Of a stretch of DNA of 64,000 nt, positions 17,956 to 32,482 are shown piece by piece; position 1 is the stretch's first letter, and each line of letters opens with the position of its first letter. The DNA comes from Chitinophaga pollutisoli (GTDB lineage: Bacteria; Bacteroidota; Bacteroidia; Chitinophagales; Chitinophagaceae): positions 124,001 to 188,000 of the forward strand of contig NZ_CP149822.1 of assembly GCF_038396755.1 (NCBI RefSeq), given 5' to 3'. Both the position numbers and the translations under genes were made by a program. A model generated the notes under the pieces. That model did not search any database. It was not told the DNA's origin and saw nothing but the letters and a program-made list of their open reading frames with translations.

Positions 17956-18750
17956 ATGGATTTACAATTGAAAGGCAAAACCGCATTCATCAGCGGCAGC
18001 ACCCAGGGAATCGGGTTCGCCGCCGCCAGGCTCCTTCTCCAGGAAGGCGCCTCCGTGATTATCAACGGCAGAACGGAAGCCCGCGTGGAAGAAGCCGTGC
18101 AGAAACTGAAAGACCTCGTGCCCAATAGTCCCGTTTCCGGCATCGCCGCCGATTTCAGCAAACTGGATGACGTGCAGCGGCTCATGGATAAACTCCCTTC
18201 CGTCGATATCCTCGTCAACAACGCCGGCATCTTCGAACCGAAAGCTTTCGAAGAAATCCCGGATGAAGACTGGTACCGATTCTTCGAAGTAAACGTAATG
18301 AGCGGCGTCCGCCTTTCCCGCCACTTCTTCCAGAAAATGATTGCTAAAAACTGGGGGCGCATCATCTTCATTTCCAGCGAATCGTCTGTCATGATCCCTT
18401 CGGAAATGATCCACTACGGCATGACCAAAACCGCGCAACTGGCCGTGAGCCGGGGGCTGGCGGAAAGGACGAAGAACACCGGCGTCACCGTCAATACGAT
18501 CTTCCCCGGCCCCACCAAGTCGGAAGGCGTGATGGATTTCCTAGCTAAACTGGCCACCGAACAAGGTGTTACGCCGGAAGAAGCGGAGAAAAATTTCTTT
18601 AAGGACATGCGCCCAACTTCGCTCATCCAGCGATTTGCTGATGTGTCGGAAATCGCGAGCATGATCGCTTATATCGCCAGCCCGCTGTCGTCGGCCACCA
18701 ATGGCGCCGCACTGCGGGTGGAAGGCGGCCTGGTGCCAACAATCGTATAA
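17956..18750 (+). CDS. SDR-family oxidoreductase
   Basis: A 264-residue classical short-chain dehydrogenase. The NAD(P)-binding loop is GSTQGIGFAA, NNAG is at DILVNNAGIF, and the catalytic Ser and Tyr-Lys are in ISSESSVM and YGMTKTAQ, so the site is complete. I take the ATG at 17956 (DLQLKGKTAFISGS), since the longer open frame adds a Pro/Ala-rich stretch that comes from overlapping the previous gene. The substrate is not predictable from sequence. It follows the membrane protein by 22 bases. Confidence 0.92.
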   Translation: MDLQLKGKTAFISGSTQGIGFAAARLLLQEGASVIINGRTEARVEEAVQKLKDLVPNSPVSGIAADFSKLDDVQRLMDKLPSVDILVNNAGIFEPKAFEEIPDEDWYRFFEVNVMSGVRLSRHFFQKMIAKNWGRIIFISSESSVMIPSEMIHYGMTKTAQLAVSRGLAERTKNTGVTVNTIFPGPTKSEGVMDFLAKLATEQGVTPEEAEKNFFKDMRPTSLIQRFADVSEIASMIAYIASPLSSATNGAALRVEGGLVPTIV

Positions 18751-18808
18751 CACTGGTATTTATGGGGACTTTTTACTATTTTGTTCCATCCAAATAATAT
18801 CAGCGTTT

Positions 18809-19485
18809 ATGAAAAAACTCTCCATGCTTCTCTTCGCGCTCGGCGCTGTGGCTCTGTTGTCGGCAGGTGTAGCTAAAAAGAAGAAAAAGTCATCTTCTTC
18901 GGCGATTCCATCACCCAGGCCGGCGTGGGCCCGGAAGGTTACATTACCCAGTTGAACGGCCTGCTGGAGAAGTCGCACGCCGGGCAGTATGAGCTCATCG
19001 GCGCAGGCATCGGCGGCAATAAAGTTTACGATCTCTACCTCCGCATGGAAAGAGACGTACTGGAAAAGAAGCCTGACGTAGTGGTGATTTACGTAGGCAT
19101 CAACGACGTATGGCATAAAGCATCAAGTCGTACCGGTACGGATTTCGATAAATTCGGCGGCTTCTACAAAGCCCTCATCAAGAAAATCCAGGACAACGGC
19201 GCGAAGGTCATCGTCTGCACACCGTCTGTAATCGGCGAGAAACATGACGGCTCCAACGAACAGGATGCCGATCTCGACAAATACAGCGGCCTGATCCGCA
19301 CGATCAGCAAAGAGCAAAACCTCCCGCTGGTGGACCTCCGCAAGGCTTTCCTCGATTATGAGACCGCCAACAATCCGGAGAATAAAGAGAAAGGGATTCT
19401 CACCACCGACCGCGTTCACCTCAATAAAGCGGGCAATGCTTTTGTGGCGGAGCAGATGGCGAAGGCGATCACGGGTTTGAAGTAA
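18809..19485 (+). pseudogene. Secreted SGNH/GDSL hydrolase, broken by a one-base deletion
   Basis: The first frame gives a signal peptide (KKLSMLLFALGAVALLSAGVA) and a lysine run. The second frame continues with VIFFGDSITQAG (catalytic Ser block I), VGINDVWHK (block III Asn) and DRVHLNKAGN (block V Asp/His). The join needs one extra base at about 18889, in an A5-G context: one more A (A6) restores KKKKKVIFFGDS. Restored, the protein has about 226 residues, the normal size for a secreted SGNH esterase such as a carbohydrate acetylesterase. As written, translation runs out of frame and ends near 18955. A 15-base-arm terminator follows. Confidence 0.85.
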
Positions 19486-19500
19486 CGAATCCAGCAGCAT

Positions 19501-19540
19501 AAAGAAAGGCAGGCCTATCCGGCCTGCCTTTCTTTATTAT
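19501..19540. terminator. Bidirectional terminator between SGNH hydrolase and GH43 genes
   Basis: Perfect 15-base arms 19501-19515 and 19521-19535 with a TATCC loop, A-rich on one side and T-rich on the other, between convergent genes. Confidence 0.88.
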
Positions 19541-19553
19541 TTAGTGAAATGCT

Positions 19554-20561
19554 TTATTCCGAAGGTTTCTTCAACCGAACCCCTTCCGCCACGGGCTCCC
19601 CGAAAACAGGAATTCCGTCTTTCGTGAAAGTAAAGCGCTGCATGCGGGGTGAGCGCTTACCGCCGCAGCCCCATCCGGGTTGGGAGTTGGCGTGGTAAAG
19701 GATCCAGTCTTCTTTGCCGTCGGGACTTTTGAAGAAGGAATTATGCCCCGGCGCCCATACTTTATTGGCGACAGAAGTCTTGAACAGCGGCTCGGGATGT
19801 TTGGTCCATTGTGCAGAATCCAGGAGGCTGCCTTTGCCGGAAAAACGGAGAAGGCCCAGCGCGTAATGGTCCGTCCAGCAGCCGCTGGCGGAATAAACGA
19901 TCATGAGTTTCTTGCCATGGAACAAGGCCTGCGGGCCTTCGTTCACCGTTACTTTCTGACCGCTTTTCTCCCATTCGTGCTCTGGCACGGAAAGGCGCAC
20001 ACGTTCGGAAGAAATGGTCCAGGGGTTTTTCATTTTCGCGATATAAATATCCTGTTGTTTGTCGACATCACCTTCCCAACCCGACCAGATCATATACAAT
20101 TCCTTTTTGTATTCGAAAATATCCGCATCAATCGCCCATTTGTTGGTAGCGTCGGTAACCTGGCCTTTGAAAGTCCAGGTGCCAGTCATGGGATCGGGCG
20201 AAGGGTTTTCGAGGACGTACATGCGATGTTGCGCGTTTTTACCGCCGGTGGCGGCGAAGTAAGCGTACCATTTGCCGCGGAGGAATTGCACCTGCGGCGC
20301 CCAAACATCTTTCGACCAGGCGTTGTTTTCCGTGGGCTTGTAGATCGTGGTGCGCTGGGCGGACTGCAGATCTGTGAGGCTGCGTGTTTTCCATAACACT
20401 ACGGAATTGGCGGTGGTATGTGTGTAATAATAGTATCCGTCCTTGTAAAAAGAATACGGATCGGCTCCGGAAGGGAGCAGTGGATTGGTGAACGTGGAAT
20501 CCTGCGCGTGGGCGAAAAGCATGGCCTGAATGAGCGTCAGGGTCAATAAGATGGTTCTCAT
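19554..20561 (-). CDS. Secreted glycoside hydrolase, GH43-like
   Basis: A 335-residue five-bladed beta-propeller hydrolase with an N-terminal signal peptide (RTILLTLTLIQAMLFAHAQ). The three GH43 acids are visible: general base Asp in GADPYSFYKDG, the pKa-modulating Asp in AIDADIFEY, and general acid Glu in TVNEGPQAL. GH43 enzymes are mainly arabinofuranosidases, xylosidases and arabinanases; the exact substrate cannot be read from sequence. Its start is divergent from the LacI regulator and a shared operator lies between, so it likely belongs to that regulon. I use the ATG at 20561, three codons inside the longest frame. Confidence 0.9.
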   Translation of the reverse strand: MRTILLTLTLIQAMLFAHAQDSTFTNPLLPSGADPYSFYKDGYYYYTHTTANSVVLWKTRSLTDLQSAQRTTIYKPTENNAWSKDVWAPQVQFLRGKWYAYFAATGGKNAQHRMYVLENPSPDPMTGTWTFKGQVTDATNKWAIDADIFEYKKELYMIWSGWEGDVDKQQDIYIAKMKNPWTISSERVRLSVPEHEWEKSGQKVTVNEGPQALFHGKKLMIVYSASGCWTDHYALGLLRFSGKGSLLDSAQWTKHPEPLFKTSVANKVWAPGHNSFFKSPDGKEDWILYHANSQPGWGCGGKRSPRMQRFTFTKDGIPVFGEPVAEGVRLKKPSE

Positions 20562-20600
20562 GCCGCACAAAATAAAATATCCCTTTCAATTCTTTTTTAC

Positions 20601-20623
20601 TACTTTCGGGTACGTACACGTAC
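20601..20623 (+). promoter_or_regulatory. lacI promoter -7 box overlapped by LacI operator (site 1)
   Basis: TACTTTCG (20601-20608) resembles a -7 box and runs into CGGGTACGTACACG (20607-20620). The same 20 bases starting TACTTTCG recur at 27807-27826. It ends 15 bases before the regulator ATG and lies 40 bases from the GH43 start. Confidence 0.7.
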
Positions 20624-20635
20624 AGCTTAATTTTC

Positions 20636-21697
20636 ATGAAAGCGAAACAACCAGAACAGCCGAACGGCGTAAAGGAAATAGCGCGCCGGGCTAAGGTATC
20701 GATCGCCACGGTGGACAGGGTGATCCATAACAGGTCAGGCGTATCTGCCAAAACGCGGGCGCGGATCGAAAAGATCATCCAGGAACTGAATTACCAGCCC
20801 AACATTATCGCGAGCCGGCTGGCGTCGCGGAAAATATTGAACCTCGCGATCCTCCTTCCTGCCGTTACCACCGAAACCGCATATTGGGAAATCCTGCTGG
20901 CAGGTGTCGGGCAGGCGGAAGAAGAGATCCGTCAAATGGGTGTGCGCATCGAACGCCACTTCTTTGATTTCAACGACCGCTCTTCTTTTCCCAAAGCCGC
21001 GAAGCAATTGCTGAAGAATCCAGTAGATGGGGTGTTGCTGGCGCCGCTCTTCATTGACGAAGCCACGGAATTCTGCCGTGAACTGCAGGAGAAAAATGTT
21101 CCTTTCGTTTTTATCAACTCTGGCATCCCCGGGCTCGACAGCCTTTCCTATATCGGCCCCGAACTGTTCCGCAGCGGTTATCTCGCAGCACATCTCATGT
21201 CTTACTGCCTGGCGCCGCAAGATAAAATCATGGTGGTGAACATGACCCGCCAGATCGAAGGCATTCATCCCCTGTTACGGAAGGAAGAAGGATTCAGGGC
21301 GTATTTCGCGGAGCAACCGGAGCGCATCGTGAAGGCGGATGTGCGTGAAAGCAGTGATGCTACCGTGGAGAAAAAGCTGGCGGAAGCGCTGGCGGCGGAT
21401 CCTGCCATAAAAGCCATCTTTGTGACCAGCTCACGCGTGCGATACGTGGCGCGATACCTGGAAACCGCCGGGAAAGGAGATATTTTGGTCATGGGATACG
21501 ACTTCCTCCCCGATAACGTGGCATGGCTCCAGAAAGGCATGATCGATTTCCTTATCTGCCAGAAACCCCAGGAACAAGCCTATCGTGGCATCATGACGCT
21601 TTACCAGCACCTCGTGCTGGGCGCGCCGGTCGAAAAGGAGTACTTCATGCCGATCGACATCATCACCCGGGAAAATCACATGTATTACAAAAATTAG
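20636..21697 (+). CDS. LacI-family transcriptional regulator of the sugar locus
   Basis: A 353-residue regulator. The N-terminal LacI helix-turn-helix is VKEIARRAKVSIATVDRVIH with hinge helix NIIASRLASRK. The rest is a periplasmic-binding-protein-like sensor domain (LPAVTTETAYWEILLAGVGQA ... FVTSSRVRYVARYLE ... YDFLPDNVAWLQKGMIDF), likely to bind a sugar or sugar phosphate. It is divergent from GH43, and its 3' end overlaps that of nagB by four bases (convergent). Four near-palindromic sites at this and two other promoters fit as its operators, including one at its own promoter, so it is probably autoregulated. Confidence 0.93.
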   Translation: MKAKQPEQPNGVKEIARRAKVSIATVDRVIHNRSGVSAKTRARIEKIIQELNYQPNIIASRLASRKILNLAILLPAVTTETAYWEILLAGVGQAEEEIRQMGVRIERHFFDFNDRSSFPKAAKQLLKNPVDGVLLAPLFIDEATEFCRELQEKNVPFVFINSGIPGLDSLSYIGPELFRSGYLAAHLMSYCLAPQDKIMVVNMTRQIEGIHPLLRKEEGFRAYFAEQPERIVKADVRESSDATVEKKLAEALAADPAIKAIFVTSSRVRYVARYLETAGKGDILVMGYDFLPDNVAWLQKGMIDFLICQKPQEQAYRGIMTLYQHLVLGAPVEKEYFMPIDIITRENHMYYKN

Positions 21698-22443
21698 AGC
21701 AAAGCGGCACTGTCTTTGTCGAGATACAACTCCGCATGCGGATGCGTGCGCAGGATCGTGCTGGGATATTGTTCGCTGACAGGCGCGTGCAATGTATGCC
21801 GGATCGCTTCCGCTTTTGCGGGACCGGGCACCATGCAGTAGATGTATTTCCCGCAAAGCAGCGCCGGAACCGTCAGCGTCAGCGCATGCGTGGGCACTTC
21901 TTCCAATGTGGCGAAACAGCCGTCGTTCACCTGTTGCCGGCGGCAGGCATCGTCCAGGTCCACCACCTTCACCAACACCGGATCGTTGAAATCCGCTACA
22001 TGCGGATCGTTGAACGCGATGTGCGTGTTCTCCCCCACTCCCATACAAACGATATCGGTTCCGCCATTCAACAGTTGTGCGTAGCGCGCGCATTCGGCCG
22101 CGGCATCGGTGGCTTGTCCGTTGAGGTAATGCACCGCGCGGAAAGGCACCTGGCCAAACAGCCGTGCTTCCAGGAAATTGCCAAAACCCTGGGGCGCATC
22201 GGCGGACAGCCCGAGGTATTCGTCCATATGAAAAGCGAGGATGCGATGCCAGGGGATGGATGTATCTGCGCGTAACGCTTCGAGGAATTCCTGCTGCGAA
22301 GGCGCGGCGGCGAAAATCATGCTGATGTGTTCCTGCGTTGCAAGCAGGGAATGTATGCGATGGGCTACCGCAGCCGCCGCGGCAGCGCCCATCCGGCGCC
22401 TGTCCTCAAACTGGTGTACGTTGATTCGTTCAAATGTATGCAT
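21694..22443 (-). CDS. nagB: Glucosamine-6-phosphate deaminase-like protein
   Basis: A 249-residue member of the NagB/RpiA-fold family that converts glucosamine 6-phosphate to fructose 6-phosphate plus ammonia. Motifs: FHMDEYLGL (the Asp of the phosphosugar site) and GVGENTHIAFNDP. Compared with E. coli NagB (GVGNDGHIAFNEP), the ring-opening Asp141 is Asn and Glu148 is Asp, while His143 is kept. Such ENxH variants are frequent in Bacteroidota but their substrate is less certain. It is the last gene of the minus-strand operon, 68 bases after nagA, and its stop overlaps the end of the LacI gene. Confidence 0.87.
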   Translation of the reverse strand: MHTFERINVHQFEDRRRMGAAAAAAVAHRIHSLLATQEHISMIFAAAPSQQEFLEALRADTSIPWHRILAFHMDEYLGLSADAPQGFGNFLEARLFGQVPFRAVHYLNGQATDAAAECARYAQLLNGGTDIVCMGVGENTHIAFNDPHVADFNDPVLVKVVDLDDACRRQQVNDGCFATLEEVPTHALTLTVPALLCGKYIYCMVPGPAKAEAIRHTLHAPVSEQYPSTILRTHPHAELYLDKDSAALL

Positions 22444-22511
22444 ATGTTGACAGGTTTTCTTGCCGGACGGCGCTCTGTGGCTGCCGCAGCGTTGTGGTAG
22501 AATTATTGGTT

Positions 22512-23738
22512 TCAGTCTGATCGCGGTTCCGTCAGTACAGAGCGCGCCGTGTTGCTACGGTGGCGGATCTCACCGTTGATGATGACGGTGTCGATATGAA
22601 TATCCGCATCGAAGAGCAGGATGTCCGCATCCTTACCCGTGGCCAGGGAGCCCTTCGTCCCGGAAACCTTCATAATGGCCGCGGGTGTGCTGGTCATCAT
22701 ACGAACGGCATCCGCAAGCGGCACGTCGGCCAGCCGCACCATATTGCGAACCAGCCGGTCGCAGGTGGCAACGCTTCCCGCAAAGGAGGAACGGTCGGGC
22801 AGTTTGGCGACATCGTCTTCCACGATCACTTTCAGGCCGTTTCGCCGGTCGCCCAGGATGCTTTCGCCCGGCGGCATGCCCGCGGCGCGCATGGCGTCGG
22901 TGATGAGGGCGGTTTTCTCCGGGCCTTTGAATTTGTATACGAGCTTGAGCAAAGCCGGCGGCAGGTGAACGCCGTCGGCGATGATTTCCACGGTCATATC
23001 GTCGAGCAGGAACGCGCTTTCGATGACGCCGGCGTAGCGGAAGGCATTCCGCCGCGTAACGCCTGACATGGCGGAATACAGGTGTGTGGCGTGGGTGTAT
23101 CCATGCTCCCATGCATCGAGGACTTCCTCATAGATCGCGTCAGTGTGGGCGATAGCGGGTAAAATGCCTTTCGATCGGAGGAACGATCCGAACGCCAGCG
23201 CTCCCGGCAGTTCGGGGGCGGCGCTCCAGCGTACCACGGCATTCGTTTCCGCCAGAACGGATGCGTATTCGGCGGGATCAGGGTTGCGGATGAACCGTGG
23301 ATCCTGGGCGCCGCGCTGGTTCATGGCGAAATAAGGCCCTTCCAGGTGCATACCGAGGAACGACGCTCCTTTCGTGTTGCGGAGATGCGCTGCTTCATAT
23401 GTGCGCACGGCATGCCGGAGGCTTTCAGTGTCACTGCTCAGCGTGGTGGGCACCATCGCCGTGGCGCCGTAACGCATATGCGTTTCCGCGACTGTAAGGA
23501 AATCGGCCACACTACCGTCCATAAAGTCGCTGTCGCCCCCGCCATGCACATGGATATCGATGAACCCGGGCGAGATGTAAAGCCCTTGCGCATCAAGTAC
23601 CTGCGCATCAGATGCGGGTATATCGTCTTCCGACACGGCCAGGATGCGGCTGCCCTCCGTCAGCACCGTGCCGCCGTTGATGACGCGGTATGGGGTGATG
23701 ATCCTGCCGTTGACGATTTTAATTTTCCGATAGTTCAT
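22512..23738 (-). CDS. nagA: N-acetylglucosamine-6-phosphate deacetylase
   Basis: A 408-residue amidohydrolase-fold enzyme that removes the acetyl group from GlcNAc-6-phosphate, giving glucosamine-6-phosphate for NagB. Motifs in order: HVHGGGDSDFMDG (HxH), LGMHLEGPYFA (metal Glu), IAHTDA, THLYSAMSG and LITDAMRAAG (catalytic Asp), so the site looks intact. I choose the ATG at 23738 (NYRKIKIVNGRIITP), since the longer frame runs into the upstream transporter. The start lies 20 bases inside the end of the transporter gene, which suggests translational coupling. Confidence 0.94.
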   Translation of the reverse strand: MNYRKIKIVNGRIITPYRVINGGTVLTEGSRILAVSEDDIPASDAQVLDAQGLYISPGFIDIHVHGGGDSDFMDGSVADFLTVAETHMRYGATAMVPTTLSSDTESLRHAVRTYEAAHLRNTKGASFLGMHLEGPYFAMNQRGAQDPRFIRNPDPAEYASVLAETNAVVRWSAAPELPGALAFGSFLRSKGILPAIAHTDAIYEEVLDAWEHGYTHATHLYSAMSGVTRRNAFRYAGVIESAFLLDDMTVEIIADGVHLPPALLKLVYKFKGPEKTALITDAMRAAGMPPGESILGDRRNGLKVIVEDDVAKLPDRSSFAGSVATCDRLVRNMVRLADVPLADAVRMMTSTPAAIMKVSGTKGSLATGKDADILLFDADIHIDTVIINGEIRHRSNTARSVLTEPRSD

Positions 23739-25089
23739 ACGACTGCTTTGACGATACAGGTGTGCGCGTCCATTTCCAGCTGCGGACCAGGTGGCCGTAA
23801 AACGCGTAGTACATGAGATACCCATAACAGGGTAACAGTACCCAATAAGCGCTGCGCTCTCCCGCTATATCGGCGAAATATCCGTACACCAGCGGCAGCA
23901 CCGCGTTGCCGCAAAGCCCCATGATCAGTACCGACGCGCCAAGTTTTGTGAACCGGCCCAGCCCGTCGAGCGCCAGCGGCCAGATGCCTGCCCAAACAAG
24001 TGAGTTGGCCAATCCCAGCATCACCACGAACCAGATGGAAATATCCGCTTCATGCCCGAAAACACTGACCATCCCCCGCATATACACGATGCAAACGGTG
24101 AGCACCGCTCCCAGCACTGTACAAAACCGCAGTGCGTTTACCTGTTTCACGAATTTGGGTATCAGGAGAATGCCGATGAAATACCCCACAATCGTGGCGC
24201 CCAGGGTATACGACGGAAACGCTTTGGCTTCGAGCAAAGGAATGCCCATCGATCCCGCGTAGGAAATGATGGTGTCGATGGCGATGACTTGTGTGCCTAC
24301 ATGCAGGAAGATCGCCACGGCGCCGAGGATCAGATGCGGGAAGTCGAAAATGCTCTTCCTGCCCCTGTTCACCGCTGCCGTTTCCCGGCTTTCGTTTTCG
24401 GTATTGATTTCTGGCAAGGGGGAAAAGCGTACCATGAGCCCCAGCGCGAATAATACGGTCCCCAAAACGGCATAAGGAACCATTACCCGGCGGATAAACG
24501 CGTCCAGCACTGCGGCCCTTTCGACGGGGTCCAGGGATGGAAGGGTGCGCTCCAGGTCGGTATCGGTAACGCGTAGTATGACTGCCGCAAAGATAAGCGG
24601 GGCGATGATCCCGGCGAATTTGTTGCAAATCCCCATCACGCTGATGCGTTGCGCGGCGGATTCCTTCGGACCGAGGATCGTGATATAAGGATTGGCGGCG
24701 GTTTGCAGCACGGCCAGCCCGACCCCCAGGGTGAAAAGCCCCAACAGGAAAAGCGGGTATGCGCGCATGAGGGCGGCAGGTACGAAGAGGAATGCCCCCA
24801 ACGACATCGCCCAGAAACCAATCATCATCCCCTTCTTGAAACCAATCGATTTCAGCAGGTACGATGACGGAACCGACATCACCAGGTAAGAAATATAGAA
24901 CGCAAATGTCACCAGGTACGACTGCAGGCTGGTAAGCTCGCAGGCGATCCTGAAATAGGGAATCAGGATGGCGTTCACCCACGACACGAAGCCGAAGATG
25001 AAAAACAACATCCCGATGATAAGGATGGAAATCCGCGTGTCGCGGCGGCTCAGGGAGCCAGGGTCTACCATTCCGGTTGGTGTCCGCAT
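23719..25089 (-). CDS. FHS-family (FucP/NagP-like) sugar MFS transporter
   Basis: A 456-residue inner-membrane symporter with twelve predicted helices. The first helix region GMLFFIFGFVSWVNAILIPYF and LQTAANPYITILGP are typical of the fucose/glucose-galactose/GlcNAc (FHS) proton symporters of Bacteroidota, where a NagP-type member imports N-acetylglucosamine. Lying directly before nagA, it most probably imports an N-acetylated amino sugar; substrate is inferred from context. It follows the first Gfo/Idh gene by 17 bases. A start at codon 7 (25071) is also possible. Confidence 0.92.
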   Translation of the reverse strand: MRTPTGMVDPGSLSRRDTRISILIIGMLFFIFGFVSWVNAILIPYFRIACELTSLQSYLVTFAFYISYLVMSVPSSYLLKSIGFKKGMMIGFWAMSLGAFLFVPAALMRAYPLFLLGLFTLGVGLAVLQTAANPYITILGPKESAAQRISVMGICNKFAGIIAPLIFAAVILRVTDTDLERTLPSLDPVERAAVLDAFIRRVMVPYAVLGTVLFALGLMVRFSPLPEINTENESRETAAVNRGRKSIFDFPHLILGAVAIFLHVGTQVIAIDTIISYAGSMGIPLLEAKAFPSYTLGATIVGYFIGILLIPKFVKQVNALRFCTVLGAVLTVCIVYMRGMVSVFGHEADISIWFVVMLGLANSLVWAGIWPLALDGLGRFTKLGASVLIMGLCGNAVLPLVYGYFADIAGERSAYWVLLPCYGYLMYYAFYGHLVRSWKWTRTPVSSKQSYELSEN

Positions 25090-25106
25090 AGGCCGGTTTT
25101 ACGGGT

Positions 25107-26447
25107 TTAAACTGTCGGTTCCCAGCCAGGCTGGTACGTTCGTTTCCATAACTTTTGCGCTTCCTTGTTGTTTTTGATCCTTCCGTTGGAGGGATCGGTA
25201 TGCAGTGTGCCGCCTGTGCGCAGGGCGATGTTGCCCAGCTGGCAAAGCAACGTGCTCTGGTGGCCACTGAGGATATCGCTGTTGAGCGGCGCGCCTTTGC
25301 GGATGCCGTCGAAGAAGTTCTGGAAGTGCAGCGCGTCGAGGGCTTCAGCCGGATTGGTGAGATTGCGCGCATCAATTTTCAAATCGTTTTTCACGTCTTT
25401 CACCACTTTGCCATCCAGGTCGTAAATGGTGTAAGCGTTGCCGTCGATCATCAGCGAGCCCTTATCTCCGTAAAACACCACACCTACCGTATTTCCTTCC
25501 AGCGGCTTGCCGTTGCAGCTCCTGCCCTCCCAGGTCATGCTCGAATTGTTGTCGAATTCGAGATTGATGACCTGCGTGTCCGGAGTTTCCCAGTCGTCTT
25601 CGTACCGGTAGCGCCCGCCGGAAGAGGTTACGCGGACAGGATACTCCACGCCCATGCCCCAGCGCAGCAGGTCGATCATGTGGGTGCCGTTGTTGAGGGC
25701 CTCGCCGGTTCCCCAGTTCCAGAACCAGTGCCAGTTGTAATGAATGAGATTATCGCGGAACGCCTTGCGGGGTGCGGGGCCTTGCCAGAGATCGTAGTTC
25801 AGCCATTCGGGAACGGCGGCTTCTTTGCCGCGGCCGATGGACTTGCGGTTGTTGGTGTACCATCCTTTTCCGAAATACGCGCGGCCGATGACGCCGTCTT
25901 TTAATTCCTGAATGCCTTTGATGACATTGGGCCAGGAACGGCGCTGGTTGCCCATCTGGATGACGGTTTTGTATTTTTTCTGTGCCGCCACGAGCAATTC
26001 GCCTTCGTGGGGATTGTGGCTGCAGGGTTTTTCGAGATACACGTGCTTCCCGGCTTTGGAGGCCAGGATGGCGGCGGGAGCATGCCAGTGGTCCGGAGCG
26101 GCGATCACGAGTGCATCCATATCCCTTTGCTCCAGGGCTTTCCGGAAATCCGGAACATCCGAAGGTTTCCTCTTTTGGATTTCCTCCACTTTGGCGATGC
26201 ACTTCAGCGAAGCGCGGCTGTCGACGTCGGAGATGGATACCACCTCACAATTGGGTTGCTTGGCGAAGTTCTGCGCCAATGCCAGTCCGCGCGCATTCAC
26301 GCCCATTACTCCTATTCTCACGCGCTCGTTGGCGCCCAGGACGGAAGCATAGCTTTTGGCGCTGAATCCCGGGAGGATACCGCCTGCGGCGATTATCGCC
26401 GAACCTTTCGCGGCTTGTTTTAAAAATGTTCTGCGTGATTTTTCCAT
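25107..26447 (-). CDS. Tat-exported Gfo/Idh/MocA-family oxidoreductase
   Basis: A 446-residue protein with a twin-arginine signal (KSRRTFLKQAA then a hydrophobic stretch), so it is exported folded, with its cofactor. The Rossmann loop GVMGVNARGLALA and the family EKP motif in YLEKPCSHNP are present, and the C-terminal alpha/beta domain carries GTHMIDLLRWG. Family members act on sugars as NAD(P)-dependent dehydrogenases; some exported ones are glycosidases (GH109) or act through 3-keto sugars. Its place with nagA/nagB and a GlcNAc-type transporter suggests periplasmic processing of a glycoside or amino sugar. It is second in the operon, 13 bases after its paralogue. Confidence 0.9.
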   Translation of the reverse strand: MEKSRRTFLKQAAKGSAIIAAGGILPGFSAKSYASVLGANERVRIGVMGVNARGLALAQNFAKQPNCEVVSISDVDSRASLKCIAKVEEIQKRKPSDVPDFRKALEQRDMDALVIAAPDHWHAPAAILASKAGKHVYLEKPCSHNPHEGELLVAAQKKYKTVIQMGNQRRSWPNVIKGIQELKDGVIGRAYFGKGWYTNNRKSIGRGKEAAVPEWLNYDLWQGPAPRKAFRDNLIHYNWHWFWNWGTGEALNNGTHMIDLLRWGMGVEYPVRVTSSGGRYRYEDDWETPDTQVINLEFDNNSSMTWEGRSCNGKPLEGNTVGVVFYGDKGSLMIDGNAYTIYDLDGKVVKDVKNDLKIDARNLTNPAEALDALHFQNFFDGIRKGAPLNSDILSGHQSTLLCQLGNIALRTGGTLHTDPSNGRIKNNKEAQKLWKRTYQPGWEPTV

Positions 26448-26460
26448 AGCGGGAATTATT

Positions 26461-27504
26461 TTAGATAGAAGATGTTTTGCGTTTGCGTTTTTTCGCTCTT
26501 TCGAACATGGAGGCCACGGTAACCGCGGCGCCTTTCCGGCGCTTGCTTTCGTCGGCCGCGTCCATGATGGCGAGGATTTCTAGCGTTGCTTCGCGGGTAA
26601 CGGGAGAAACGCCCGTTTTGAAGAACTCCGCTACGCGCAGCAGCAAAGGTTCGTAGCCTTTGTAAGGCCCCAGTTCCACGATACCTTTTTCTCCGAAGGC
26701 TTTTCCGCCATAATCCTGCTTTCCGCTGCGGATGCCCCGGAAAGTACCGATCCTTCCGCCATCCCACACGCCTACGACCAGATCGGTATCGGCGGTAGAT
26801 GTCCGGGAAACCGAAACGCAGCCGGTGCCCATCACGGTGCAAAGCGTTTCCACGCCATGAATGCCGTACCAGTACAGATCCGGGTGCGTTTTTTCGAGGG
26901 CGCATGGACTGTATGCTTCAGCGCCCAAAACTTTCCCGATCGAGCCATTGGAGACGGCTTGCGCGGCTTCCATGTAACGGAGGGACGACGCGGAGAACAC
27001 GGCGGCGTTATGTTTTTCGGCAAGGTCGAATATTTCGATGGCTTCCGCGAGCGAGGCGGTCATAGGTTTGTCGATAAACACTTTCTTCCCGGCTTTGATG
27101 GCGGGAAGGGCTTGCCGGAGATGGGGGCGCCCGTCGTTGGATTCCACCATGACGACATCGGATTTGGCGAGCAGGTCCTCCATCGAGGAAACGAATTCCA
27201 CGTTGAGCTTTTTCAGTTCTTCCGGGTAACCCGGGAAACGTTTCTGGTTGTTTTCGATATCAGGACTTGCCTCCGGCAATGCGGCAACGATGCGGAAGCC
27301 TTCCAGTCCGGGAGAAGGAACGTCCTTATTGAAGCTTTTGGCAAAGGCGACGGCGTGCGAGGTATCACAGCCGATGATCCCGATGCGGATGGGGTCGGCG
27401 GAAAGGGCCATGGCGCGGAGCGGTCGGCTGGCGGTGAGGCCCGCGCCAATCCCGGCGGCGGTCATGGTCTGGAGGAACTGTCGGCGGTCATAACGTTGTT
27501 TCAT
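26461..27504 (-). CDS. Second Tat-exported Gfo/Idh/MocA-family protein
   Basis: A 347-residue protein. I use the ATG at 27504 because it precedes a twin-arginine signal (YDRRQFLQTMTAAGIGAGL); the longest frame reaches 77 codons further into the promoter region. The cofactor loop is GIIGCDTSHAVAFA rather than the classic GxGxxG, and the EKP motif is replaced by FIDKPMTASL, where the Lys is kept. It is only distantly similar to the next gene and may be its partner. First gene of the nagA/nagB operon, with a perfect-palindrome operator 73-86 bases upstream. Confidence 0.88.
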   Translation of the reverse strand: MKQRYDRRQFLQTMTAAGIGAGLTASRPLRAMALSADPIRIGIIGCDTSHAVAFAKSFNKDVPSPGLEGFRIVAALPEASPDIENNQKRFPGYPEELKKLNVEFVSSMEDLLAKSDVVMVESNDGRPHLRQALPAIKAGKKVFIDKPMTASLAEAIEIFDLAEKHNAAVFSASSLRYMEAAQAVSNGSIGKVLGAEAYSPCALEKTHPDLYWYGIHGVETLCTVMGTGCVSVSRTSTADTDLVVGVWDGGRIGTFRGIRSGKQDYGGKAFGEKGIVELGPYKGYEPLLLRVAEFFKTGVSPVTREATLEILAIMDAADESKRRKGAAVTVASMFERAKKRKRKTSSI

Positions 27505-27576
27505 GGCAATATCTTCAATTTTTTTAGTGTTTTGACGGTTGGATAATCGCTTGGCTGATGCTGGTTTCCGTAAAGT

Positions 27577-27590
27577 CGGGTACGTACCCG
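27577..27590. promoter_or_regulatory. LacI operator site 2 (perfect palindrome)
   Basis: CGGGTACGTACCCG is a perfect 14-base palindrome, 73-86 bases before the start of the Gfo/Idh operon. Confidence 0.7.
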
Positions 27591-27782
27591 TAAATACTGC
27601 TTTAATATGGTTGCACGAAGGCAACCTGTCAGGATGCGCGCCGAGGATAAAGGCAGTCGCATGCTGTAAAATAGGCAAACATATTTCAAAATGCAAGGGA
27701 AAGGGGGCAGAAAAAAATAATTTACCTTTCTGCATATATTATAGTCTATCCCCTGCCCCAACCTACTGAGGACAGAAAAATA

Positions 27783-27826
27783 TTTGCATTTTCCGGAATT
27801 GAAATGTACTTTCGGGTACGTACACG
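27783..27826 (+). promoter_or_regulatory. Promoter of the NRAMP-like operon with LacI operator (site 3)
   Basis: TTTG (27783-27786) and TACTTTCG (27807-27814), 20 bases apart, give a good -33/-7 pair. The operator CGGGTACGTACACG (27813-27826) overlaps the -7 box, so repressor binding should block polymerase. Confidence 0.7.
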
Positions 27827-27878
27827 GTAATTGATCCACGTCACTTTAGAACGCACGGCTACATTGGAATCCACGCCT

Positions 27879-27892
27879 CGTGTACGCACCCG
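27879..27892 (-). promoter_or_regulatory. LacI operator site 4
   Basis: CGTGTACGCACCCG is the complement of CGGGTGCGTACACG, one change from sites 1 and 3. It is downstream of the NRAMP-operon promoter, 39 bases before the ATG. Confidence 0.6.
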
Positions 27893-27931
27893 TAAAACAA
27901 CAACCAGATCAGAATAAAAAAATACAGGTTT

Positions 27932-29182
27932 ATGGAAGAATCAACAGCCACCGCGCACCCATCCGCCACTGCTCCCGCCACCAGCCGCGGGAAAGCATGG
28001 TTGCAGGCCATCGGGCCGGGGCTTATCACGGCCGCGCTCGTGTTCGGCCCCAGCAAAATCACGATTACCTCCATGATGGGCGCCCGTTACGGGTACAGCT
28101 TATTGTGGCTGGTGCTGGTCGCTATTTTCTTTATGATTGTTTTCGCTGTTATGAGCGCCAGGGTCGGTATCGCCACCAACGAATCCGTTTTAACCACCAT
28201 CGGCCGCAAATGGGGCAAGGGCGTACGAACGGCCGTGGGTGTGGGCGTATTCCTCGTCTGCGCATCCTTCCAGGCGGGTAATTCCATTGGTACGGGTATC
28301 GCCATCGGCGAAGCCACCCATACAAGCCCCAATATCTGGATCATCATATTCACCATGACCGCCATCGGTATGCTGTTTTTCCGCAGTTTCTACAAATCGA
28401 TGGAAAGGATCATGATCGTTCTCATCGCCCTGATGCTGCTCGCCTTCATCGCTACCTTCATTTTTACCAAGCCTTCGGTGTCGGGTATGGCGGCCGGATT
28501 GGTGCCCGTGGTGCCGGAGGGCTCGCTGCAGCTGGTGATCGCTTTCATGGCATCCTGCTTCTCCATCGTAGGCGCTTTGTACCAATCCTACCTCGTGCAG
28601 GAACGCAAAAGGCTGAACCCGGGTGTTAAACAAACCGGCCGCGAAACCATTCCGGGCATGGTGATCCTCGGCGTCCTCGCCGCCATCGTGATGGTATGCG
28701 GCGCCGCTGTCCTGAACACCCGCAATATTGAAGTCACCAAAGCCACGGATATGGCCGTAGCGCTGGAACCCATCTTCGGGAACTTCGCCTCCGCCCTCTT
28801 CCTTTCGGGCCTCTTCGGCGCTTCCTTTTCTTCTGTTATCGGCAACGCCGCCCTCGGCGGCACCCTCCTCGGCGATGCCCTCGGCTATGGCGGCACTCTG
28901 CAATCCGGTATGGTCCGTTTCTTTATCGGGGTAATCATGGTTATTGGCGCCGTGGTAGCCATTTCTTTCGGGAAGCTGCCGCTGGAACTGATCGTGCTGG
29001 CACAGGCCGTTACGATCTTCGTCGTGCCTTTCATCGGCGTGGCGCTGTACCTGATCGCGAACGACGAAAAAATCATGGGCCCCATGAAAAACCCGCCTTT
29101 CATTAAGGTCGTGGGCGCCATCGGGCTCGTTATCATGGCATTGCTGATGATCAGCAACATCAAAACTTTATTCTTTTCCTGA
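27932..29182 (+). CDS. NRAMP-fold transporter lacking the metal-site residues
   Basis: A 416-residue inner-membrane protein with about eleven hydrophobic helices and clear NRAMP-family starts (AIGPGLITAALVFGPSKIT). In metal-carrying NRAMPs helix 1 has DPGN; here it is GPSK (residues 39-42). In helix 6 the A-x-x-MPH segment becomes GALYQSYL (residues 214-221), so both the Met and His are gone. It therefore probably does not carry Mn/Fe by the known mechanism. First gene of an operon with an SDR, a DHDPS-family aldolase and an M20 hydrolase, under a LacI promoter: it may import an organic substrate for that pathway. The substrate is inference. Confidence 0.85.
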   Translation: MEESTATAHPSATAPATSRGKAWLQAIGPGLITAALVFGPSKITITSMMGARYGYSLLWLVLVAIFFMIVFAVMSARVGIATNESVLTTIGRKWGKGVRTAVGVGVFLVCASFQAGNSIGTGIAIGEATHTSPNIWIIIFTMTAIGMLFFRSFYKSMERIMIVLIALMLLAFIATFIFTKPSVSGMAAGLVPVVPEGSLQLVIAFMASCFSIVGALYQSYLVQERKRLNPGVKQTGRETIPGMVILGVLAAIVMVCGAAVLNTRNIEVTKATDMAVALEPIFGNFASALFLSGLFGASFSSVIGNAALGGTLLGDALGYGGTLQSGMVRFFIGVIMVIGAVVAISFGKLPLELIVLAQAVTIFVVPFIGVALYLIANDEKIMGPMKNPPFIKVVGAIGLVIMALLMISNIKTLFFS

Positions 29183-29203
29183 CAACATTGCAAACAATAC
29201 GAC

Positions 29204-30220
29204 ATGGACACAATATTCTCAACCGTTGAAGAACTGCTGCAGCCTTCCGAAGCCCTGATAGCAGACATTGCCCGCCTTGATGGCGACATCCTCATTCTCG
29301 GCGTGGGCGGTAAAATCGGCCCCAGCCTCGCCAAACTCGCCAAACAAGCCGTAGACGCCTCCGGTGTTCCGCGCCGCGTGATAGGCGTGAGCCGGCTTTC
29401 CGAACCCGGCCTCCGCGAAGAGCTGGAAGCCGCCGGCGTGGAAGCCATCGCCGCAGACCTGCTGAACGAAGCCGACCTCGCTTCGCTCCCCGATGCTAAA
29501 AACGTGCTCTATCTCGCCGGCACCAAATTCGGTACCACCGGCAAGGAGGCCTTCACCTGGGCCATGAACGCCTACCTCCCCGGACGCGTGGCGGAAAAAT
29601 ACCGGAATTCCAGAATCGTGGTTTATTCCACCGGCAACGTATATCCCTTAGTGCCCGTGTTCTCCGGGGGCGCAGACGAAAACACACCCACCGGCCCCAT
29701 CGGCGAGTATGCCCAGTCTTCCCTCGGCCGCGAGCGCATTTTCCAGCACTTCTCCCAACAATATGGCACCGAACTGCTCATCTACCGCCTGAACTACGCC
29801 AACGACCTCCGGTACGGCGTGCTCCTGGAAATCTGCAAATCCGTGGTGAACGAATCCCCCATCGACCTCCGCATGGGCCACGTTAACGTGATCTGGCAAG
29901 GCGATGCAAACGAGTACGCGCTGCGCTCTTTCCTGCACACCTCCCATCCCGCCAAATTTCTCAACATCACCGGACCGGAAACAGCCTCCGTTCGTTGGAT
30001 CGCGGAAGAATTCGGCAAGCTCGCCGGTAAAACGCCGCAGTTCGTCAACGAAGAATCCGACACCGCGCTCCTCAGCAATGCCGCCGAAAGCTTCCGCCTT
30101 TTCGGCTATCCCAAAGTAACCCTCCGCGACATGATCCGCATGACGCTCGAATGGTTCCAGGGAGGCGGCGCTACCATCAAAAAGCCCACCCATTTCCAAA
30201 CCAGGACCGGTAAATTCTAA
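29204..30220 (+). CDS. Extended SDR-like NAD(P)-binding protein without YxxxK lysine
   Basis: A 338-residue Rossmann protein with the nucleotide loop LGVGGKIGPSLAKLA and the usual serine region VVYSTGNVYP. The catalytic position usually read as YxxxK is YAQSS here (in EYAQSSLGRER), so the lysine is missing. The C-terminal part follows the extended epimerase/dehydratase pattern (NITGPETASVRWIAEEFGKL). It may still be an epimerase or dehydrogenase with changed chemistry. It starts 21 bases after the transporter and lies before the DHDPS-like gene. Confidence 0.87.
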   Translation: MDTIFSTVEELLQPSEALIADIARLDGDILILGVGGKIGPSLAKLAKQAVDASGVPRRVIGVSRLSEPGLREELEAAGVEAIAADLLNEADLASLPDAKNVLYLAGTKFGTTGKEAFTWAMNAYLPGRVAEKYRNSRIVVYSTGNVYPLVPVFSGGADENTPTGPIGEYAQSSLGRERIFQHFSQQYGTELLIYRLNYANDLRYGVLLEICKSVVNESPIDLRMGHVNVIWQGDANEYALRSFLHTSHPAKFLNITGPETASVRWIAEEFGKLAGKTPQFVNEESDTALLSNAAESFRLFGYPKVTLRDMIRMTLEWFQGGGATIKKPTHFQTRTGKF

Positions 30221-30246
30221 TTCAAGACCTTTCGTTTGCACAAAAT

Positions 30247-31284
30247 ATGGACGCATCCATCAAATCATTACTGTATAGCGGCACCGTAATTCCCGCGCAC
30301 CCGCTGGCGCTCACCGCTGACCGCCAGCTCGACGAAGCCCGCCAGCGCAGGCTCACCCGGTATTACATCGCATCCGGCGCCGGCGGCGTGGCCGTTGGCG
30401 TACACACCACCCAATTCGAGATCCGCTGGCCGCAGTTCAATCTCTACGAACGCGTGCTCCGCCTCGCCGCGGAAGAAATCGATAAAGCGAACCTCGACCG
30501 CCCCTTCATCCGCGTGGCCGGTATCGCCGGGCCGACCGAACAGGCCGTCAATGAAGCCCGCATCGCCAGGGACCTCGGCTATCATATCGGGCTCGTGAGC
30601 ATGGGCGGATTGAAAGATTACTCCGAAGACCAACTCGTGCAGCACGTAGCGGCCGTAGCGGAAGTGATCCCCGTTTTCGGCTTTTATCTCCAACCTTCTG
30701 TCGGAGGTCGTATATTGAGCTACGATTGCTGGCGCAAACTGGCGGACATCCCCAACCTGCTCGCCATCAAAACCGCGCCCTTCAACCGATACCAGACGCT
30801 GGACGTGTTCCGCGCCGTTTGCCACTCGGAGCGCCGCGATGAGATCGCGATGTACACCGGCAACGACGATAACATCGTGGCCGACCTGCTCACCGTCTAC
30901 AAAATCCCGGTAAACGGTAAGATTGTAGAAAAACGCTTTGCAGGCGGATTGCTGGGACATTGGTCGGTGTGGACGAGCAAAGTGGTGGAACAGTTCAACG
31001 AAATTAAAGCCAATCCGCTGGACGCTGGATTGCTGAGCACCAACATCGCCGTCACCGACATGAACGCCGCGCTGTTTGACCCCTCCCACTCGTTCAAAGG
31101 CTCCATCGCGGGGCTGCACGAAGTGTTGAGAAGGCAGGGGCTGATGGAAGGGACCTGGTGCCTCAGCGACCACGAGGTGCTGTCGCCGGGGCAGGCCGAA
31201 GAAATCGACCGTGTGATCCGGGAATATCCGGAACTGACCGACGATGCATTCGTGCGCGCCTTCCTTGAAAAAGACAAAATTTAA
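30247..31284 (+). CDS. Dihydrodipicolinate synthase-family (class I) aldolase/lyase
   Basis: A 345-residue TIM-barrel protein of the DHDPS/N-acetylneuraminate lyase superfamily. The Schiff-base lysine is in NLLAIKTAPF, the tyrosine in FGFYLQPSVGGR, and the pyruvate-carboxylate region is at GAGGVAVGVHTTQFE. It is longer than true DapA (about 290-300 residues), so lysine synthesis is unlikely. Relatives split keto-acids such as sialic acid or keto-deoxy sugars into pyruvate and an aldehyde or sugar. It sits between an SDR and an M20 hydrolase, 7 bases before the latter, in a regulon that also holds nagA/nagB. Confidence 0.88.
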   Translation: MDASIKSLLYSGTVIPAHPLALTADRQLDEARQRRLTRYYIASGAGGVAVGVHTTQFEIRWPQFNLYERVLRLAAEEIDKANLDRPFIRVAGIAGPTEQAVNEARIARDLGYHIGLVSMGGLKDYSEDQLVQHVAAVAEVIPVFGFYLQPSVGGRILSYDCWRKLADIPNLLAIKTAPFNRYQTLDVFRAVCHSERRDEIAMYTGNDDNIVADLLTVYKIPVNGKIVEKRFAGGLLGHWSVWTSKVVEQFNEIKANPLDAGLLSTNIAVTDMNAALFDPSHSFKGSIAGLHEVLRRQGLMEGTWCLSDHEVLSPGQAEEIDRVIREYPELTDDAFVRAFLEKDKI

Positions 31285-31291
31285 TGCCGAT

Positions 31292-32482
31292 ATGCTGAAG
31301 GAAAAGATCCGGGAAATCGCCCGCAGTTTGCAGGACAAAGCCGTTGCCACGCGCCGGCACCTGCATGCCCACCCGGAGCTGTCGTTCGAAGAAACGCAAA
31401 CCGCCGCCTTCGTCGCCTCAAAGCTCGATGCGCTGGGGATTTCGTATACCCGAATGGCCAATACGGGGCTGGTGGCGCTGCTGGAAGGAACGAAAGGCCC
31501 ATCCGGCCAGGTGATCGCCCTGCGCGCCGACATGGACGCATTGCCGATCACGGAGCTGAACGATGTGCCGTATAAATCGCAAAACCCTGGTGTAATGCAC
31601 GCCTGCGGGCACGATGTGCATACCACATCGTTACTCGGTGTCGCTGAAATCCTGCTGCAGTTGCGTCATACGTTCGCCGGCACGGTAAAGCTTATTTTCC
31701 AGCCGGGTGAGGAAACCATTCCCGGTGGCGCGAGTATGATGATCGCGGAAGGTGTGCTTCGCAACCCGGCACCCGCCCGTATCCTGGGCCAGCACGTGAT
31801 GCCGGAGCTGCCGGTTGGCAAGATCGGCATGCGGCCCGGGAGGTACATGGCGAGTGCGGATGAAATTTATATCGAAGTTTACGGAAAAGGCGGCCACGGC
31901 GCAATGCCGCATACCACGATCGACCCCGTGATCATCGCCAGTCATATGATCCTGGCATTCCAGCAGATCGTGAGCCGCAACGCCGATCCCACGATGCCTT
32001 CGGTATTATCCATCGGCAAAGTAATCGCGGACGGCGCGCATAACGTGATTCCCGACAAAGTGATCATCGACGGCACTTTCCGCACGCTGGACGAAACCTG
32101 GCGCTTCGACGCGCATGAGCGCATCCGCCGGATGGCGAAATCCATTGCAGAAAGCATGGGGGGCAGCTGCAAGGTGGATATCCGTGTAGGTTACCCGGTG
32201 CTGATCAACCACGAAGAACTGACGGCCGAAGTGCGCGCGCTGACAGAAGAATACATGGGCGCGGAAAACGTTGTAACGCTTCCTGTCTGGATGGCCGCGG
32301 AAGATTTTGCCTCTTACTCCCAGGTATCCGACGCTTGCTTCTACCGGCTCGGCGTCGGCAATGCAGAACGCGGCATAACCTCGGGACTGCATACCGCTAC
32401 TTTCGACGCCGACGAGCAATCGCTCGAAATCGGGGCCGGACTGATGGCTTGGCTGGCGCTACGTTCGCTGGGCGCATCCTGA
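31292..32482 (+). CDS. M20-family metallohydrolase (amidohydrolase)
   Basis: A 396-residue dinuclear zinc hydrolase of the M20D type that removes acyl or aminoacyl groups from amides. Metal ligands are visible in HACGHDVHTT, QPGEETIPGG (Glu pair) and GQHVMPELP, with the last His in SGLHTATFDA; the dimerisation insert follows KGGHGAMPHTTIDP. I use the ATG at 31292 (LKEKIREIARSLQ) since the longer frame overlaps the previous gene. Last gene of the NRAMP-like operon; it might deacylate an N-acyl sugar or amino acid. A terminator follows. Confidence 0.93.
   Translation: MLKEKIREIARSLQDKAVATRRHLHAHPELSFEETQTAAFVASKLDALGISYTRMANTGLVALLEGTKGPSGQVIALRADMDALPITELNDVPYKSQNPGVMHACGHDVHTTSLLGVAEILLQLRHTFAGTVKLIFQPGEETIPGGASMMIAEGVLRNPAPARILGQHVMPELPVGKIGMRPGRYMASADEIYIEVYGKGGHGAMPHTTIDPVIIASHMILAFQQIVSRNADPTMPSVLSIGKVIADGAHNVIPDKVIIDGTFRTLDETWRFDAHERIRRMAKSIAESMGGSCKVDIRVGYPVLINHEELTAEVRALTEEYMGAENVVTLPVWMAAEDFASYSQVSDACFYRLGVGNAERGITSGLHTATFDADEQSLEIGAGLMAWLALRSLGAS

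Follow-up and report, generated by a model that had tools for sequence, protein, structure and literature searches.

Organization of the locus

The window analyzed here is a 64,000-nucleotide stretch (positions 124001-188000) of the 6.08-Mb single-contig genome of Chitinophaga pollutisoli, and it harbors a LacI-family regulatory gene together with two groups of catabolic genes that are likely to share a palindromic operator. A preliminary description of this DNA listed a divergent GH43/lacI gene pair, a minus-strand Gfo2-Gfo1-NagP-NagA-NagB operon and a plus-strand Nramp-SDR1-DHDPS-M20 operon, and this gene content proved to be correct. Where computed, the intergenic gaps in the operons range from 13 to 26 bp, with an overlap of 41 bp between DHDPS and M20 and a gap of 68 bp between NagB and NagA. 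The genes, in window positions, are as follows.

19554..20561, minus strand: GH43-family glycoside hydrolase, divergent to lacI and seen only in the loci of closer relatives
20636..21697, plus strand: LacI-family regulator with LacI helix-turn-helix (HTH) and Peripla_BP_4 domains; HTH region VKEIARRAKVSIATVDRVIHNR
21694..22443, minus strand: NagB-like protein of a divergent subfamily, with FAAAPSQ loop and GENTHIAFNDP
22512..23825, minus strand: NagA, N-acetylglucosamine-6-phosphate deacetylase family, over the TIGR00221 cut-off; start position approximate
23719..25089, minus strand: NagP/FucP-like MFS sugar transporter
25107..26447, minus strand: Gfo1, Tat-type Gfo/Idh/MocA oxidoreductase; nearest solved relatives are the 8tdf/8tdh dehydrogenases
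26461..27504, minus strand: Gfo2, Gfo/Idh/MocA oxidoreductase with a Tat-type start near 27504, first gene of the minus-strand operon
27932..29182, plus strand: Nramp-family transporter without the DPGN and MPH metal-ligand motifs
29204..30220, plus strand: SDR1, extended-SDR-like, without the lysine of YxxxK
30247..31284, plus strand: dihydrodipicolinate synthase (DHDPS)/N-acetylneuraminate-lyase superfamily protein with Tyr147 and Lys175
31244..32482, plus strand: M20 amidohydrolase

The regulator carries both an HTH domain (PF00356, 65.6 bits) and a periplasmic-binding-protein-like effector domain (PF13407, 119.9 bits), as is proper to its family. NagA scored 264 bits against the TIGR00221 equivalog cut-off of 225.65 and the MFS protein is NagP-like, both of which would fit an ordinary N-acetylglucosamine utilization cluster with passenger genes. 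We consider that explanation improbable and dropped its plain form because a second NagA and a second NagB, both above cut-off, lie elsewhere in the same genome and because the NagB-like protein belongs to a divergent subfamily. This protein fell under every listed NagB cut-off (118.3 bits against 236.9 for TIGR00502), and its altered motifs, FA(A/S)APSQ and GENxH(I/L)AFNDP, are present in 16/16 aligned sequences (the window and 15 relatives). These motifs replace ATGSTP and GNNGHIGFNEP, and the other NagB of the genome has LATGSTPK at the loop; the NagB-like protein is without such a TGST-type loop, which we take to be the phosphate-binding loop of NagB, and its subfamily perhaps has another reaction or substrate than glucosamine-6-phosphate deaminase. 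In addition, the plus-strand genes are conserved on their own in two phyla, as described below. The MFS protein did not reach the cut-off of the NagP equivalog NF046060 (373.9 bits against 625), and no sugar kinase was seen among the proteins scanned, no search having been aimed at sugar kinases.

For Gfo1, a firm label as a BT2158-type glycoside 3-dehydrogenase was rejected (143.7 bits against a cut-off of 750), as was a GH109-type Gfo/Idh glycosidase, to which 2ixa gave just a weak partial match. An extra Gfo/Idh-type protein with an Oxidoreduct_C domain (PF16490) was seen in the clusters of some relatives (stretch L126, 4373-5785; stretch L079, 1900-3390); it was not among the proteins scanned at the two loci of the window's genome, where no dedicated search was made.

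Operator sites in the window

The 14-base motif CGGGTACGTACMCG occurs at three positions and a form with one change, CGGGTGCGTACACG, at a fourth, all four being where they had first been placed. The sites and the two copies of a longer string that overlaps them are listed here.

20607..20620, plus strand: operator O1, CGGGTACGTACACG, between the divergent GH43 and lacI genes, 29 bp upstream of the lacI start
27577..27590, no strand: operator O2, perfect palindrome CGGGTACGTACCCG, upstream of the Gfo/Idh-NagP-NagA-NagB operon
27813..27826, plus strand: operator O3, CGGGTACGTACACG, 119 bp upstream of the Nramp-like gene
27879..27892, minus strand: operator O4, CGGGTGCGTACACG, one change, 53 bp upstream of the Nramp-like gene
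20601..20620, plus strand: 20-base string TACTTTCGGGTACGTACACG, candidate -7 element overlapping O1
27807..27826, plus strand: 20-base string TACTTTCGGGTACGTACACG, candidate -7 element overlapping O3, identical to the 20601..20620 copy

With up to two mismatches, the window gave 8 strand-hits against 0.66 expected, and 0/100 shuffles reached 8. The identity of the two 20-base copies had been pointed out before, together with a -7 promoter box within them; TACTTTCGGGTACGTACACG read as a -7 box is one position off the Bacteroidota consensus, TAnnTTTG. In the relatives examined, most sites at lacI and nramp likewise have a TA ahead of TTT, a recurrence that is compatible with, but no proof of, a promoter overlapping the operator. 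The open reading frame caller set the start of the first Gfo/Idh gene at 27735, spanning the 27577 site; once the Gfo2 start is set at the Tat-type position near 27504, O2, and hence all four sites, would probably be intergenic.

Operator sites in the whole genome

Genome-wide, the exact motif occurs at 5 places (7 strand-hits), of which three belong to the window and the remaining two lie at 4.76-4.78 Mb; the exact reversed-pattern control gave 0 matches in the 6.08-Mb genome. These counts contradict a random scatter of the motif, which the preliminary description had named as the observation that would speak against a regulon. Loosely defined sites are not rare: the looser form CGKGTRCGYACMCG occurs at 6 places without mismatch (the five exact places and 27879) and at 12 further places with one mismatch, and its 18 forward hits at up to one mismatch compare with 12 in the reversed control. 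That the sites are chance matches is nevertheless a negligible prospect, contradicted by the exact-match counts, by the positions of the sites and by the association with LacI described below.

Nine of the 12 one-mismatch sites were examined, and 8 of them were rejected as operators because they lie inside long open frames, a crude placement, since the frames run from stop to stop and would also take in 3/6 of the regulon sites, at their 5' edges. The ninth, at 592614, is in an intergenic region ahead of a SusC gene, with a LacI of its own near. An extended symmetric form, TTTCGGGTACGTACCCGAAA, was seen in relatives, and this 20-bp sequence with up to 3 mismatches was found at 4 places in the genome, all of the regulon set, with 0 in the control; one of the four is at 4.778 Mb, and the window has the other three.

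Both exact sites outside the window are promoter-proximal. The site at 4764890 lies 214 bp ahead of a SusC gene, which is followed on its 3' side by genes for SusD, a class-III aminotransferase, an MLE protein, an SDR, a ceramidase-like protein and an SSF symporter. The second site, at 4778524, precedes a gluconolactonase-family gene by 79 bp; a divergent gene, which encodes a pyrroloquinoline quinone (PQQ)-type sugar dehydrogenase carrying a cytochrome domain, starts ~50 bp from this site. The MLE protein scored 327.8 bits against the galactonate dehydratase NF010624 cut-off of 311, a family membership read from sequence; as this was its best match, an L-fucose/rhamnose acid route for these genes was rejected. 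The aminotransferase gene (stretch L027, 14990-16300) and the ceramidase-like gene (18269-19670), at 4.77 Mb, are frameshifted in the genome analyzed, a point that weakens the overall reading and may reflect sequencing error or decay; the aminotransferase frame is intact in the relatives read as L114, L112 and L072, and the ceramidase-like frame in L072, L114 and L126. The 4.76-Mb loci and the window are 4.6 Mb apart on the contig, or about 1.46 Mb if the contig is circular.

The preliminary description had joined three transcription units into one LacI regulon. The regulon is supported, but its extent was drawn too small, as two more operator-bearing intergenic regions lie at 4.76-4.78 Mb. 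These operators, together with the finding that relatives keep both gene sets in one place, make the regulon larger than was proposed. It is likely that one LacI-family repressor binds the palindrome (core CGGGTACGTACCCG, extended TTTCGGGTACGTACCCGAAA) in four intergenic regions, namely those between lacI and GH43, between the two operons of the window, before the SusC/SusD-aminotransferase-dehydratase-SDR-SSF genes, and between the gluconolactonase and PQQ sugar dehydrogenase genes. Operators, regulon membership and co-clustering are each supported by the sequence comparisons.

Association of the operator with LacI in other genomes

The search for LacI homologues used an E-value threshold of 1e-40 and took in 148 genomes, among them that of the window. 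A homologue was found in 49/148 and the exact motif in 35/148, with both present in 33 (Fisher p 1.5e-18); within the genus (n = 79), LacI was present in 31/33 motif genomes (Fisher p 5.8e-10), although both tests treat genomes as independent, so that the p values overstate the association and to that extent count against the one-repressor reading. The reversed pattern, present in 5 genomes, showed no association with LacI. In genomes with a LacI of ≥57% identity the motif was present in 21/21, and in those with only a more distant LacI in 12/28. Of the 21 former genomes, 20 have a site no more than 10 kb from their best LacI, and all 33 motif and LacI genomes have one within 14 kb of a LacI homologue; in these 33, 59/84 motif places are within 20 kb of a homologue. 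The motif thus tracks the LacI orthologue in related genomes, which had been put forward as a check, and in the two motif genomes without LacI the matches fall inside 796- and 602-codon frames.

The sites are also placed consistently. Among hand-picked promoters of regulon genes, 39/40 carry a site, at distances mostly alike for each gene, and the site lies 26-28 bp before lacI in 6/8 relatives examined (241 and 292 bp in the other two). An even palindrome with a central CG near promoters including that of lacI, as is usual for a LacI regulon, was found except at the lacI of a group of ~60% identity, and the HTH part V(S/A)xxTVDRV is conserved in the LacI proteins compared. In a set of loci picked by LacI or motif, 39/51 have a site, with 80 hits against 0 in the reversed control; this set overlaps itself and was selected on the two features in question, and the count serves as illustration rather than test. 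Outside the genus, exact operators were found 33 bp before an nramp match in a Chitinophagaceae metagenome-assembled genome and 78 and 60 bp before gfo2 matches in Rhodocytophaga and Dyadobacter.

Several further observations weigh against a single repressor serving all four regions. The LacI group of ~60% identity has no site before lacI itself. The exact motif is missing from 16/49 LacI genomes, each of them one of the 28 in which LacI does not reach 57% identity, and some sites in LacI genomes precede other SusC genes or unrelated genes. Genome G061 has a single site, which is not on the contig of its best LacI but 12 kb from a second one of 47% identity, and in G021, G033, G052 and G060 the site and a LacI of 47-50% identity are about 13 kb apart. 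GH43 is present at only some closer relatives' lacI loci. Beyond the genus, 7/10 DHDPS loci with LacI have no exact operator, and the looser core gave 8 hits in the LacI loci against 6.55 expected from shuffles, and 11 against 17.4 expected in 25 Bacteroidota loci without LacI.

Part of this evidence bears on a different account, in which a wider LacI subfamily, whose members share one recognition helix, has the motif as its common operator; several paralogues would then compete for it, and another regulator may act at the distant sites. A second LacI of the window's genome (stretch L029, 9031-9816; a 261 aa frame at genome 592.6-593.8 kb) has the same TVDRVIHNR helix and lies close to a one-mismatch site (L029, 8615) before another SusC/SusD pair. 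TVDRV(I/L) is kept in LacI proteins down to 38% identity, and exact sites accompany the LacI proteins of 47-50% identity, 12-14 kb away, in the five genomes just named (for example stretch L125), in one of which (G061) the site is ahead of a SusC gene. This second LacI group seems, from its sites, to use the motif too. Still, no LacI gene lies near the 4.76-Mb sites, the nearest of the genome's 11 being at 4.60 Mb (~164 kb off), and relatives place those genes beside the closer LacI. We regard the wider account as rather unlikely. The operator seems to belong to a LacI subfamily, and within it the window regulator is the strongest candidate to act at the sites reported here. As a separate observation, the second LacI at ~593 kb may share or contest the operator.

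Gene order around lacI in relatives

Gene order was compared in 20 LacI stretches from other genomes (of 65 LacI places in total, the window's own two included) and in 20 motif-chosen stretches, 18 of them in LacI-bearing genomes and 2 in G050 and G053. The SusC-to-SSF genes, which in C. pollutisoli lie at 4.76 Mb, flank lacI in six genomes (G059, G029, G041, G037, G011 and G043), and the ceramidase-like and SSF genes stand beside lacI at the edge of the stretch in G054 and G044. In G043, G054, G044, G011 and G059 the run continues via the dehydrogenase and Nramp genes to Gfo2-Gfo1-NagP-NagA-NagB-SDR1, with one operator between Nramp and Gfo2, and it reaches DHDPS and M20 in all of these except G044, whose stretch ends at SDR1. 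A pectate-lyase/GH28-like protein was also seen beside SusC/SusD in a clustered Chitinophaga (stretch L129, 13607-14860) and in Dyadobacter (stretch L202, 19735-20889), which hints at a pectin-like glycan.

The Nramp-SDR1-DHDPS module

A scan of genome contigs for the DHDPS family gave at least 594 pattern matches and at least 590 confirmed relatives, and the neighborhoods of the best 80 loci were compared, so that the pairing figures hold for close family members. Within these 80 loci, homologues of SDR1 were found in 79, Nramp in 34, M20 in 29, Gfo2 in 28, the PQQ dehydrogenase in 14 and LacI in 12, and homologues of NagA and NagB in 6 and 8. Adjacency was counted on 78 loci (L140 and L141, both Chitinophaga, omitted), 41/78 of which were assigned to Bacillota. 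Adjacent same-strand pairs were SDR1-DHDPS in 70, Nramp-SDR1 in 31, DHDPS-SdaB in 12, SdaB-SdaA in 11 and DHDPS-M20 in 11; the PQQ dehydrogenase gene directly precedes nramp in 9/78 loci and follows DHDPS in 4. The SDR1-DHDPS pairing spans Bacteroidota and Bacillota, and one SdaA and one SdaB representative from Bacillota exceed the L-serine ammonia-lyase cut-offs. With genes grouped by single-linkage clustering, a family with weak GGDEF-like and HTH_Crp-like matches in one scanned member (stretch L165, 13843-15186) occurs in 26/41 Bacillota loci and may be the regulator of the module there.

The window transporter belongs to the Nramp family (PF01566, 229.1 bits against a cut-off of 29.8). 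In SLC11 proteins the metal ligands are held by DPGN in transmembrane helix (TM) 1 and MPH in TM6 (PMC6398981, seen in part). Both motifs are absent from 39/39 Nramp homologues, which places them outside the SLC11 metal transporters by this measure: TM1 has GP(S/G)(K/S) for DPGN, and TM6 has GAxYQ(S/A)YL where SLC11 has GATxMPH, a register that was set by the shared GA and in which the phmmer alignment is uncertain. A phylum-wide search for the window's Nramp (E 1e-50) gave 4/247 genomes, too few for a statistic; in the three others, SDR1 and DHDPS adjoin it in two and, within the stretch examined, not in the third, where it is 37% identical.

In SDR1, Tyr169, taken by position as the YxxxK tyrosine, is present in 84/84 sequences, and position 173 is C in 73, T in 6, S in 4 and V in 1, and never lysine. 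The DHDPS protein has the Schiff-base Lys175 and Tyr147 in 85/85 sequences, consistent with the class I aldolase superfamily, and its predicted fold (mean pLDDT, the predicted local distance difference test, 72.5, from 10 sequences) matches those of N-acetylneuraminate lyase (NAL) and DapA. The equivalogs DapA TIGR00674 (18.9 against 206.15) and KdgD TIGR03249 (19.6 against 373.95) were far from reached, and with these weak scores and a general fold match, 2-keto-3-deoxygluconate (KDG) aldolase, DapA and NAL were all rejected as a firm label.

The genes of the window had also been read as a single linear amino-sugar pathway, from glycan cleavage through to keto-acid cleavage. Such a pathway is not shown: the NagB-like protein lies below the cut-offs and has no ATGSTP loop, other nagA and nagB genes exist, and the module recurs in many genomes with no nagA or nagB nearby. 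Tentatively, Nramp-SDR1-DHDPS (with M20 and, in Bacillota, serine-dehydratase subunits) may form an undescribed catabolic pathway common to both phyla, in which the metal-ligand-free Nramp would import an organic acid, plausibly a periplasmic PQQ-made (N-acetyl)hexosaminate, and SDR1 would have a new non-canonical activity tied to the DHDPS-type enzyme. The literature searched, which left most subscription journals outside its coverage, yielded no description of an Nramp-SDR-DHDPS module or of the operator.

The main rival to a shared pathway is that one regulator serves two unrelated substrates, with the nag operon acting on an acetamido sugar and Nramp-SDR-DHDPS-M20 on a further compound, such as an N-acylated hydroxy-amino acid, that comes with the same food. 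The scarcity of NagA and NagB homologues in the best 80 module loci fits this account, as does the order DHDPS, SdaB, SdaA in Bacillota, where the L-serine ammonia-lyase match points to a hydroxy-amino-acid product. However, the nag genes and the module form one run in G043, G054, G011, G059 and Rhodocytophaga, and a run up to SDR1 in G044, which exceeds what a shared regulator needs. Two substrates under one repressor are quite conceivable, if somewhat short of probable.

Proposed mechanism

Repression, the effector, each reaction, its cell location and the substrate are what we infer from here on. The repressor would occupy the palindromes and, in the case of lacI and nramp, perhaps cover the -7 element; a sugar-type ligand of the Peripla_BP_4 domain would release it. 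SusCD and GH43 would then import and split an N-acetylhexosamine-bearing glycan, and the sugar could take two routes. One would be NagP/NagA; in the other, the PQQ sugar dehydrogenase, lactonase and Gfo/Idh proteins would oxidize the sugar in the periplasm to an acid that the metal-ligand-free Nramp may import. In chemical terms, a 2-acetamido-2-deoxy-aldonic acid is an N-acetyl alpha-amino beta-hydroxy acid. Its acyl group would be removed by M20 (deacetylation), and a serine-dehydratase-like loss of water and ammonia would give a 2-keto-3-deoxy acid, a step possibly carried out by SdaAB in Bacillota and here perhaps by the class-III pyridoxal phosphate enzyme or another protein. Aldol cleavage of the 2-keto-3-deoxy acid would fall to the DHDPS-type enzyme.

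As a whole this chemical scheme is doubtful, and several points speak against it. A D-gluco hexosaminate is D-amino-acid-like at C2, whereas the serine dehydratase families seen in Bacillota are named as specific for the L form. NagA requires a phosphorylated sugar. SDR1 is without the YxxxK lysine and so lacks the catalytic pair of the SDR family, the fold match of the DHDPS protein would suit a lyase, a synthase or a KDG aldolase alike, and the MLE protein was not recovered in the best 80 module loci.

The predicted regulon ties a metal-site-less Nramp-type transporter and two enzymes with reactions yet to be named to sugar uptake genes, and one repressor with four operator-bearing intergenic regions offers a concrete place to ask about the Nramp cargo and the role of SDR1-DHDPS. 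If the module is indeed an undescribed pathway, the LacI regulon supplies the sugar context that makes it testable.

Comparison with known systems

Judged by its sites and genes, the regulon is of the familiar LacI kind. It resembles the local LacI-family sugar regulons of PMC4052901, as far as that work was seen, in a site by the regulator's own gene, an even palindrome with a central CG, sites upstream of start codons and carbohydrate targets, and it differs from them in being spread over two distant loci; that study covers a single Bacteroides group, and the passages seen mention no such regulon. The Bacteroides regulators KdgR, UxaR, UxmR and UxuR (PMC3878776, in the parts seen) are likewise LacI regulators of Bacteroidota sugar-acid genes. 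They are assigned to uronate pathways, whereas nag-type genes, a PQQ dehydrogenase, the Nramp-like protein and DHDPS are found here, a comparison made by gene content and not by motif.

For the transporter, outgroups of SLC11/Nramp that diverge at the metal site have been recognized, one of them named orphan (PMC10606218, in part), and the window protein, a Pfam Nramp with a divergent metal site, is like these 'orphan' and NRMT outgroups (PMC10606218, PMC4072509, PMC6398981, each seen in part). It differs from SLC11 in its GP(S/G)(K/S) and GAxYQ(S/A)Y motifs and in its place in a catabolic operon, the comparison being by metal motifs alone, with no tree. Gfo1, a Tat-type Gfo/Idh protein, has partial similarity to the periplasmic glycoside 3-dehydrogenase BT2158 of Bacteroides (PMC11300592, in part) and is not its orthologue by the family model.

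The proposed oxidative glucosamine route of natronoarchaea (PMC12343721, in the parts seen) differs from the present scheme in a phosphorylated intermediate and a glucosaminate-6-phosphate ammonia-lyase, and in its other genes, regulator and domain of life. Both have genes for glucose dehydrogenase and galactonate dehydratase close to those for amino sugars, and both end at a keto-deoxy acid.

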